A DNA stretch of 64,000 bases from Meiothermus ruber DSM 1279 (lineage in GTDB: Bacteria > Deinococcota > Deinococci > Deinococcales > Thermaceae), in NCBI RefSeq assembly GCF_000024425.1, contig NC_013946.1, positions 806,001 to 870,000 on the forward strand, in the 5' to 3' direction. A model generated the notes under the pieces. The model worked only from the letters and a program-made list of their open reading frames with translations, searched no databases and was not told the DNA's origin. Every line of letters begins with the position of its first letter. Positions within the stretch are counted from its first letter, which is position 1. Of the stretch, positions 57,887-61,508 are shown piece after piece. The position numbers were made by a program, and so were the translations under genes.

Positions 57887-58870
57887 TTAGCAATAAGGCC
57901 CTACAGCCTCGGCCCTGGGGTTCTCGGTTTGCAGGTCTTCTGGCCAGGCCCCGCCCAGACTTACCCAGGCCCACACCATATCGGCGGGGATGGGGGCCAC
58001 AAAGTGCAGGTACTTGCCGGTGCGGGGGTGTTGCAGGCGCAGTTCGTAGGCGTGCAGGGCCTGACGCGCTATCAGCTCGGAGGGCTTGCCGTAGACCTCG
58101 TCGCCCAGGATGGGGGCGTGTAAGTGCTTGAGGTGCACGCGAATCTGGTGGGTGCGCCCGGTGTGCAGAATGGCCGAGACCAGGGCGTGCGGTTCGGCTA
58201 CCGCCAGCACCTCGAACTCGGTCTGGGCGTGCCGGGCCGCTACCCCCCCCACGTGCATGCGAGTGCGGTCGACCGGGTGGCGGCCGATGGGGGCCGAGAG
58301 CAGGCCCTCGCGCGGGATGCCCACTGTTAGGGCAATATAGCGCTTGTACACGCTGCGTCCGGCGAAGGCCTCGGCAAGCCGGCGGTGGGCGGCCTCGTGG
58401 CGGGCTACCACAATTACTCCGCTGGTGCCCTTATCGAGGCGGTGCACGATGCCGGGGCGTATCAGCTCGGGCTTCTGGGCTTGCAAAAGCAGCCCGCCCT
58501 CCTCCTCGGACTCGCCCAGTGAGAGATCCAGCCCGAACCGCCCCAAAATGGCGTTCACCAGCGTTCCGGAATACACCCCGGGGGCCGGGTGGGTGATCAT
58601 GCCCGCCGGCTTGTTGATTACGATCAGGTCGGGATCTTCGTACAGGATGTGCAGCGGGATATCCTCGGCGGCCACGCTGGCCGGCTGGGGGGGTGGGGGC
58701 TCTACCTCCACGGTTTCGCCCCGCAGCTTGTAGGAAGGCTTGGTCACCACCTTACCCCCCACCGTCACCAGACCGGCCTCGATCCATTCCTGGGCCTTGG
58801 CCCGGGAGGTATTGGCCTCGAAGGCCAGGGCCTGGTCGAGGCGAACCCCACTGGCAGAAAAGCGCACCAT
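57887..58870 (-). CDS. rluD: RluA/RluD-family 23S rRNA pseudouridine synthase
   Basis: A 327-residue enzyme. An N-terminal S4 domain (RLDQALAFEANTSRAKAQEWIEAGLV) is followed by the synthase domain with LYEDPDLIVINKPAGMITHP and the catalytic PGIVHRLDKGTSGVIVVA (Asp) near residue 145. HTGRTHQIRVHLKHL and PILGDEVYGK are later motifs. Probably modifies helix 69 of 23S rRNA as RluD does. TACAAT lies 7 nt before the ATG. Confidence 0.9.
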   Translation of the reverse strand: MVRFSASGVRLDQALAFEANTSRAKAQEWIEAGLVTVGGKVVTKPSYKLRGETVEVEPPPPQPASVAAEDIPLHILYEDPDLIVINKPAGMITHPAPGVYSGTLVNAILGRFGLDLSLGESEEEGGLLLQAQKPELIRPGIVHRLDKGTSGVIVVARHEAAHRRLAEAFAGRSVYKRYIALTVGIPREGLLSAPIGRHPVDRTRMHVGGVAARHAQTEFEVLAVAEPHALVSAILHTGRTHQIRVHLKHLHAPILGDEVYGKPSELIARQALHAYELRLQHPRTGKYLHFVAPIPADMVWAWVSLGGAWPEDLQTENPRAEAVGPYC

Positions 58871-58877
58871 CAGGGTT

Positions 58878-58883
58878 ATTGTA
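58878..58883 (-). promoter_or_regulatory. -10 box of rluD (leaderless)
   Basis: TACAAT on the minus strand, 7 nt before the ATG at 58870. Confidence 0.5.
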
Positions 58884-58939
58884 CGTTACGTCAAAATGAC
58901 CCGGCCCCCTTTGGTTGAGGTGCTAAGGTGGGCCTAGCG

Positions 58940-59560
58940 ATGGATGGCCGCAAGCGCCTATTTATGCGGTTTTTGCGCCGCTCGGTCTGGGCTTATTTTT
59001 GGGGCTCGCTGGCGGTTTTAGTCAATGCCCTGATTGTTCACGGGCTGTACTTCGGCTGGCCGGCCTGGGTTTGGGGATATGCCGTTGCAATTGGCGCGTT
59101 GGTGGCCCCCCTGGTTGCGCTGCTGGATCTGTGGTGGGCCCGCCGGCAGCTCAACCCGACGCAAAGGGTCTTTCTGGACGGTGCCGACAGCCTCGAGGCA
59201 GCCCGACAAGCTTACCGCAACCTGGTGCACTGGCCGGTGCTCTCGGTGGGTCGGGTGATGGGGCCGCACCTGCTCGGTACCATGGGCGGCTTTTTACTAG
59301 CCATCGACTGGGCGCACCGGTGGGGCGGCTTTCCCACCGGGCCCCTGGAGATGCTGTACCTGCTGCCGTGGTATCCGCTTAACGCGGCCCTGCACGCCAT
59401 CATCGAGTATCTGGTGGGGGCCAGCCAGTCCCAGCGTCTGATGGCCTATCTGAGGGAACGCTTCGGCGATGAGGTGGTGGTTTCTTCCCGCTTGCGCATC
59501 CCTTTTGTCTTCAAGGTGCTGGGGGTGCTGGTGGCTTTGGGGCTGCTACCGCTCTTGTAG
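58940..59560 (+). pseudogene. N-terminal membrane sensor half of a split HD-GYP protein
   Basis: A 206-residue four-to-five-helix membrane region (FLRRSVWAYFWGSLAVLVNAL; GPHLLGTMGGFLLAIDWAHRW; FKVLGVLVALGLLPLL). It ends with TAG 59558-59560 and the next codon, GTG 59561, continues the same frame into the HD-GYP protein. The last helix is cut inside its hydrophobic core, so the stop interrupts one long gene of about 520 codons. Without the stop the order would be sensor, TM helix, HAMP, HD-GYP. Classed as pseudogene or recoded gene; ATG 58940 or GTG 58928 is the start. Confidence 0.65.
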
Positions 59561-60502
59561 GTGGCGGTGCTGGTTTACTTCCGGCTTGAATCAACCCATC
59601 TGCCGGGGCTGGTGGCCTGGGGGTTGTTTTCGGGGCTGGTGCTGATGGTGGCCGGGGGCGTTCTCCTCTCCCGTGAAGTGGCCCGGCCCGTGCAGGCTGT
59701 GCTCGAGGGCATGCAGGCTATGCAGGAAGGAAAAGGGCCGGTGCGGGTGAGCGCGGTGGCCTGGGACGAGCTGGCCGACCTGGCCCTGGGCTTCAACAAC
59801 CTGGCCCGGGCCCTCGAGGCCGAACGGCAGCGCAACCTCGAGCTGTACCGCGACACCGTGCAAACCCTGGCGGCCGCCATCGACGCTCGAGACCCCTACA
59901 CCCGGGGCCACTCCCAGCGGGTGGGGGCCTACGCACAGCTCATAGCCCGCAAGCTGGGCTGGGACGCACAAAAAGCCTACCAGCTCTACATCACCGGGCT
60001 GTTGCACGACATTGGCAAAATCGGCGTGCCCGAGGCCATCCTGCAGAAAACCGATAAGCTCAGCCCCCAGGAGCGCCAGCTCATCGAGAGCCACCCGCTT
60101 ATCGGCTACGAGATCGTTCGCCAGTCCCGCGCGCTTGCCGCCCACCTGCCGGGCATTCGACACCACCATGAGCGGCTGGATGGCTGTGGCTACCCCGACG
60201 GGTTGAAGGGGGAGGCCATTCCCATCGAGGCCCGAATCCTGGGTGTGGCGGATGTCTGGGATGCCCTTACCAGCCACCGACCCTACCGCCCAGCCTTAAA
60301 ACCTTCAGAGGTCTACCCGCGTCTCTTGTGTGAAGCCCTTGATCCCCAAGCAGTGCGAGCCCTGGGTGAACTGTGGCAGGAAGGGGCGCTGGACGCCTTG
60401 CTCGAGGAAGCTCAGCGAGAAACGGGTCGGCCAGACCTTTCCACGCCGAAAAGTGATACGGAATCAATCCAGTGGCCCCGGCCTCTGTCAAAAACAGAAT
60501 AG
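59561..60502 (+). CDS. HAMP/HD-GYP cyclic-di-GMP phosphodiesterase half
   Basis: A 313-residue product if started at GTG 59561. A TM helix ([20 protein letters not shown], residues 17-36), a HAMP domain ([18 protein letters not shown], about 37-90) and HD-GYP at about 105-265: [32 protein letters not shown], and [20 protein letters not shown] enzymes hydrolyse c-di-GMP. The frame is continuous with the preceding membrane protein through a single TAG. Its N-terminus lacks half a membrane helix, so it may not insert properly as a separate protein. Confidence 0.85.
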
Positions 60503-60517
60503 AACGCGCCCGCTTGC

Positions 60518-60523
60518 TATGAT
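60518..60523 (+). promoter_or_regulatory. -10 box of ruvB (leaderless)
   Basis: TATGAT, 7 nt before the GTG at 60531. It argues for GTG 60531 over the ATG triplets at 60519-60527, which lie inside the box. Confidence 0.5.
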
Positions 60524-60530
60524 GATGGGC

Positions 60531-61508
60531 GTGGAAGCGGATTTGACCCTGCGGCCCAAGCGGTTAGACGATTACGTGGGCCAGGCCAAGCTCAAAAAGA
60601 AACTGCGGGTCTACCTCGAGGCCGCTAAAAACCGGGGGGAGGCCCTCGATCACCTGCTGCTCTTTGGCCCGCCGGGGCTGGGCAAGACCACCCTGGCCCA
60701 CGTGGTGGCCTACGAACTGGGGGTGAATATCCGCGTGACCAGCGGCCCGGCCATCGAGAAGCCGGGCGACCTGGCGGCCATCCTGACCAACAGCCTCGAG
60801 GAAGGCGACATCCTCTTCATCGACGAGATTCACCGCCTGTCCAAAGCCGCTGAGGAGCACCTCTACCCGGCGCTGGAAGACTTCAAGATCGACATCGTGA
60901 TTGGCGCAGGCCCGGCGGCCCGTACCCTGCGGCTCGACCTGCCCCGCTTTACCCTGATTGGAGCCACCACCCGCCCGGGGCTCATCTCCGGGCCTTTGCG
61001 CAGCCGCTTTGGCATTATCGAACACCTGGAGTTCTACACCGAGACCGAGCTGGCCCAGGGGGTGACGCGTGATGCCCAGCTCATGGGCCTGGCCATCGAA
61101 CCCGAGGCGGCGCTAGAAATTGGCCGTCGCAGCCGGGGCACCATGCGCATTGCCAAGCGCCTGTTCCGGCGGGTACGCGACTTTGCCGAGGTGGCGGGCG
61201 AGCAGGTGGTGGGCCTCGAGCGCGCCCGGCAGGCCCTGGATGCCCTGGGCCTGGACGCCCTGGGGCTGGATGCGCGCGACCGCCAGATTATCCAGACCGT
61301 GATCGAGCGCTTTGCCGGGGGGCCGGTGGGCCTCGAGACCCTAGCCACCGCCCTTTCCGAAGACCCCGAGACCCTCGAGGAGGTTCACGAACCCTTCCTG
61401 ATTCAACTGGGCCTGCTCAAACGCACCCCCCGGGGCCGCCAGGCCACCGAGCGGGCCTACGCCCACCTGGGCTACCCGCTGCCCGAGCAGAGTCGCCTGC
61501 TGGAATAA
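60531..61508 (+). CDS. ruvB: Holliday junction branch migration ATPase RuvB
   Basis: A 325-residue AAA+ motor. Walker [14 protein letters not shown] near residue 50, Walker [13 protein letters not shown] near residue 98, sensor 1 IGATTRPG, arginine finger LRSRFG, and C-terminal winged helix [16 protein letters not shown]. With GTG 60531 the N-terminus reads like Thermus RuvB ([12 protein letters not shown]). ruvA and ruvC are not in the window. Confidence 0.96.

Follow-up and report, generated by a model that had tools for sequence, protein, structure and literature searches.

A probable recent nonsense allele of an ancestral membrane-sensor/HD-GYP gene in Meiothermus ruber DSM 1279

We analysed a 64,000-nucleotide stretch of the Meiothermus ruber DSM 1279 genome (contig NC_013946.1, positions 806,001 to 870,000), hereafter the window, and all coordinates given below are positions in it. 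On its plus strand, a frame running from 58940 to 60502 encodes 206 residues, a TAG codon (59558–59560), a GTG codon (59561–59563) and then 312 residues up to a terminal TAG (60500–60502). The TAG at 59558–59560 is the only stop within this frame, and there is no frame break. The gene is flanked by a divergent gene, which we take from its sequence to encode an RluD-type pseudouridine synthase (rluD), and by ruvB, assigned from its Pfam RuvB domains.

The 5′ half (58928–59560, plus strand) is hydrophobic, corresponds to the membrane sensor part and ends in the premature TAG. Its true start is more likely the GTG at 58928 (210 aa) than the ATG at 58940 (206 aa), because this GTG and the GAGGTG preceding it are conserved in the two nearest relatives (genomes G017 and G021) and because the calculated Shine-Dalgarno energy is better at the GTG (−9.2 kcal/mol) than at the ATG (−7.2 kcal/mol). 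The stop falls in a hydrophobic segment (59516–59572, plus strand), probably the fifth transmembrane helix; the corresponding residues 193–211 of the intact G021 protein have a hydropathy of 2.58, and a low-confidence model of the intact orthologue places a helix at 189–213. The 3′ half (59561–60502, plus strand; 313 aa if begun at GTG 59561) carries the last transmembrane segment, a HAMP-like segment and the HD-GYP domain.

The HD-GYP domain (59867–60310, plus strand) matched Pfam HD_5 (PF13487) above the cut-off, with an E-value of 3.4e-38. The hallmark motifs of HD-GYP proteins are HDIGK and HHExxDGxGYP, and the LLHDIGK and the 11-residue GYP motif of the 3′ half align with the HD and GYP motifs of the solved structures 4mcw and 5z7c. 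The catalytic motifs are intact in the sequence. As HD-GYP domains are expected to degrade cyclic di-GMP, the predicted activity of this half should be that of a c-di-GMP phosphodiesterase. The HAMP-like segment (59663–59818, plus strand) scored 22.9 bits against PF00672, just below the cut-off of 25, and the same family matched in all six relatives at E ≤ 1, the best of them at 1.6e-07. The sensor half gave no Pfam family at E ≤ 0.01, no solved-structure match at E ≤ 1 in an aligned profile search and, in NCBIfam, only a sub-threshold match to PspM (21.1 bits against 80), and we assign it no named identity. Six aligned sequences gave a predicted structure of the intact orthologue (mean pLDDT 51.2, pTM 0.31) that was too poor for a fold search. 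The intact gene probably encodes a membrane sensor with six transmembrane segments, joined via HAMP to HD-GYP. The original prediction had described a TAG followed by an in-frame GTG, a stop cutting a hydrophobic helix and, upon read-through, the order sensor, transmembrane segment, HAMP and HD-GYP; the reading frame, the hydropathy and helix placement, and the intact orthologues, which show the whole order, agree with it on these points.

The sensor half was sought in 50 genomes of the family and was present in seven of them, M. ruber DSM 1279 and six others. In a profile search of the sensor part across 111 genomes of the phylum, eight genomes, our own included, had it among the matches listed (best first), G053 being the addition; the many other matches listed span only about positions 184–299, which is the HAMP end. 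The M. ruber genome has the sensor half only once. The carriers include Meiothermus sp. KatS3mg071 (L010), M. taiwanensis (L011) and Calidithermus chliarophilus (L012), which apparently duplicate G017, G021 and G003, respectively, and were counted once. The distant relative G053 (L117, frame from base 1363) has the same order of sensor, HAMP and HD-GYP in a frame of 702 codons, and its C-terminal extension resembles Nudix proteins on visual inspection.

The column of the stop is occupied by Gln in all seven relatives, as CAG in G017, G021, G005, G003, G018 and G053 and as CAA in G001. This codon is followed by GTG in six of them and by GTA in G001, and the frame is continuous across the junction in all seven. 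Six of the seven have the gene as one unbroken frame (521–702 codons), and, along their whole length, the two M. ruber halves align with single intact proteins of the relatives. The junction, GLLPL-x-QV, is conserved in all six aligned relatives. The seventh relative, G018, breaks elsewhere, near residue 76 and within a T run (L055). The ruvB gene of G018 is also in two frames; since two neighbouring genes are broken, one of them in a T run, these breaks are likely assembly errors.

From the Gln at the stop column and the unbroken junction in the relatives, it follows directly that the two halves were one ancestral gene, which was very probably split by a nonsense mutation in the M. ruber lineage. 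The earlier reading of the TAG as a fresh nonsense mutation, for which a Leu or Gln codon was to be sought at this position in orthologues, is thus upheld by the Gln found there; orthologues made of two separate proteins with a poorly conserved junction, which would have spoken against it, did not turn up. We have also considered that a membrane protein and an HD-GYP protein might be two genes by origin, lying side by side by chance. Nothing beyond the presence of two reading frames speaks for this, and the continuity of all seven relatives over the junction leaves it a negligible probability, so we rejected it.

Changes were assigned to the M. ruber or the G017 branch with G021 as the outside reference. 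We discarded sites at which G021 agreed with neither (two before the stop, four in the post-stop core and two in the C-terminal tail), and the variable tail (alignment columns after 500) was excluded from the core count. One M. ruber genome, DSM 1279, entered the comparison. On the M. ruber branch, we counted 13 silent and 5 replacement changes before the stop, 9 silent and 4 replacement changes in the post-stop core, where there are no further stops, and 2 of each in the tail; the post-stop core of the G017 branch had 28 silent and 11 replacement changes. The M. ruber core still looks to be under purifying selection (probability of at most 4 replacements among 13 changes under neutrality, 0.0013), 13 changes giving little power, and the ratio of silent to replacement changes did not differ between the two branches (9:4 versus 28:11; Fisher P = 1.0). 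The relaxed selection expected of old, decayed pseudogenes was thus not observed past the stop.

These counts suggest that the enzyme half stayed under selection for most of the M. ruber branch. Either the stop arose recently or the cell still uses some product, and the data fit both. Since selection does not appear relaxed after the stop, we read the gene as a recent nonsense allele and not as a decayed pseudogene. The same purifying signal would be equally expected of a working split gene, which counts against a plain broken gene. Two of the replacements on this branch lie in the HD-GYP region: a G to C change at 60185–60187, at the variable position of the GYP motif, where C is also found in G005, and an A to G change at 60242–60244 (alignment column 442), where all six aligned relatives have Ala. 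The latter, at an invariant column, hints at relaxation, but it is a single case.

The close relative G016 lacks the gene. Its rluD and ruvB proteins are 97.2% and 98.5% identical to those of M. ruber, and the gap between the two genes holds no trace of it save a 13-base match beside rluD; the sensor half had no match in the whole G016 genome. On the ruvB tree, G016 falls among M. ruber, G017 and G021 (clade support 0.988; support for its exact place 0.646). Because it nests among carriers, the absence points to a loss, and the simplest reading of the sequences is that G016 lost the gene cleanly. The nine other matches to the 3′ half in the M. ruber genome, seven of them at E ≤ 1.5e-29, are all free of internal stops. 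As a close relative has lost the gene and seven other strong HD-GYP matches are unbroken, the gene is dispensable. Together, the nonsense allele and the clean absence in G016 suggest a regulator that is easily given up in Meiothermus. The HD-GYP gene is likewise absent from the rluD–ruvB site of another genome, G007, whose ruvB is ∼0.8% away from that of G018 on the tree; its place is taken by a 210-aa HD-domain protein (L057:2526–3155; PF01966, E 1.6e-08) with no detectable similarity to it.

We weighed three other accounts of the TAG. It could be a sequencing or assembly error, the gene being intact in the living strain, as the original prediction had allowed. Typical 454 errors are indels, whereas the change here is a substitution outside any homopolymer run. 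The genome, a single contig of 3,097,457 bases, was reported to be assembled from 9.84x Sanger and 27.4x 454 coverage and polished with Illumina data, and its finished error rate was given as below 1 in 100,000 (PMC3035268). This bound leaves room for at most some 31 errors. In seven window genes, a stop results from 3.2% of random coding substitutions, so that no more than about 0.9 spurious nonsense codons are expected genome-wide, and hence an error is not favoured. Real broken genes are common in this genome, the same report listing 38 annotated pseudogenes (PMC3035268). An error is therefore conceivable, as had been proposed, but the finishing data make it rather unlikely.

Alternatively, the ribosomes might stop and restart at the junction, yielding a stub of the membrane sensor and, as a second protein, an HD-GYP enzyme that lacks the sensor, in a split state that is useful to the cell. 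Termination-reinitiation is described as working only when the stop and the start overlap or lie very close (PMC10666635), and here the distance is zero. Premature stops are reported in the Shigella flexneri diguanylate cyclase genes dgcE, dgcM, dgcN and dgcQ; in dgcM and dgcQ the stop is followed by a nearby ATG and two proteins are made from each, dgcQ still raising c-di-GMP, while expression of dgcM lowered it (PMC11327459). The purifying selection on the downstream half also fits, and restart would be mechanistically possible. The exact adjacency of TAG and GTG, on which the original prediction had based the plausibility of a restart, cannot be used in this way: the relatives indicate that the GTG is an inherited Val codon that predates the stop, so the adjacency cannot be taken as a sign that a restart site evolved here, and we rejected that argument. 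Start-type codons (ATG, GTG and TTG) make up 243 of 3388 codons (7.2%) in nine window frames, so that chance alone would place one next to a random stop in 7.2% of cases and within ten codons in 52%. The Shine-Dalgarno energy at GTG 59561 is only −1.5 kcal/mol, compared with a mean of −4.4 for random 20-mers, and 88% of 1500 random window 20-mers equal or beat it; GTG 59567 reaches −6.9 kcal/mol, but at a spacing of only about 2 nt. A search for sigma-70-type sites found nothing promoter-like in 58700–60700, and the split form occurs in none of the seven relatives, so the stop–start pair is not conserved. We consider this account unlikely. Its stronger form, in which the stop is fixed and useful in M. 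ruber, the inherited Val codon serving as the restart that frees the enzyme from its sensor in a step from a fused to a split signalling gene, is very unlikely.

Read-through of the TAG, perhaps regulated, would yield some full-length protein. In-frame stops with low dN/dS are reported to be common in bacterial genes, with a CAG/TAG pair among the examples (PMC7918605), and Shigella dgcQ and dgcN were reported to yield products of full size (PMC11327459). However, when the stretches holding the 47 tRNA genes of the M. ruber genome were read with ARAGORN, none of the 47 had a CTA (amber) anticodon, and a special tRNA decoding TAG was rejected. TAG is also an ordinary stop in the window, terminating four of its seven clear genes, and this stop is shared with no relative. 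Low-level read-through by ordinary tRNAs is possible, but we regard read-through as the source of full-length protein as highly improbable.

We return, with good confidence, to the reading in which an ancestral sensor/HAMP/HD-GYP gene was broken by a recent nonsense allele, its second half perhaps still being made. In M. ruber, a single substitution probably made a TAG out of the invariant Gln codon, in what is probably the fifth transmembrane segment. Ribosomes would then mostly stop there and release a truncated membrane stub, and the sensor would no longer drive the enzyme. The HD-GYP half might be made at a low level, through restart at the nearby GTG codons or read-through; a restarted product would have one transmembrane segment and no sensor. 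The annotation should treat the two frames as a single interrupted gene. One HD-GYP enzyme coupled to a sensor, still present in the nearest relatives, is probably missing from the type strain, and, if the downstream half is expressed, the locus would be a single-step case of a fused sensor-enzyme becoming uncoupled. Judged by title, none of the papers found on Meiothermus HD-GYP proteins or M. ruber Mrub genes concerns this gene.

The gene shares with HD-GYP phosphodiesterases that carry a membrane sensor and HAMP the HD_5/HD domain and the HDIGK and HHExxDGxGYP motifs, with a HAMP-like segment in front, and its domain can be compared with the solved 4mcw (‘metal dependent phosphohydrolase’) and 5z7c (3′3′-cGAMP phosphodiesterase). 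It differs from them in that a stop parts the sensor, which has no named family, from the enzyme half. The Shigella flexneri dgc genes resemble it as c-di-GMP signalling genes with a stop ahead of the catalytic domain, followed closely by a start in dgcM and dgcQ; they serve synthesis, whereas degradation is expected in M. ruber, and their expression has been shown, whereas the M. ruber case is read from sequence. The survey of in-frame stops in bacterial genes focuses, as reported, on stops found in two or more species, and the M. ruber stop is in one genome; the two are alike in a single CAG/TAG difference between close relatives and in purifying selection on the gene (PMC7918605).
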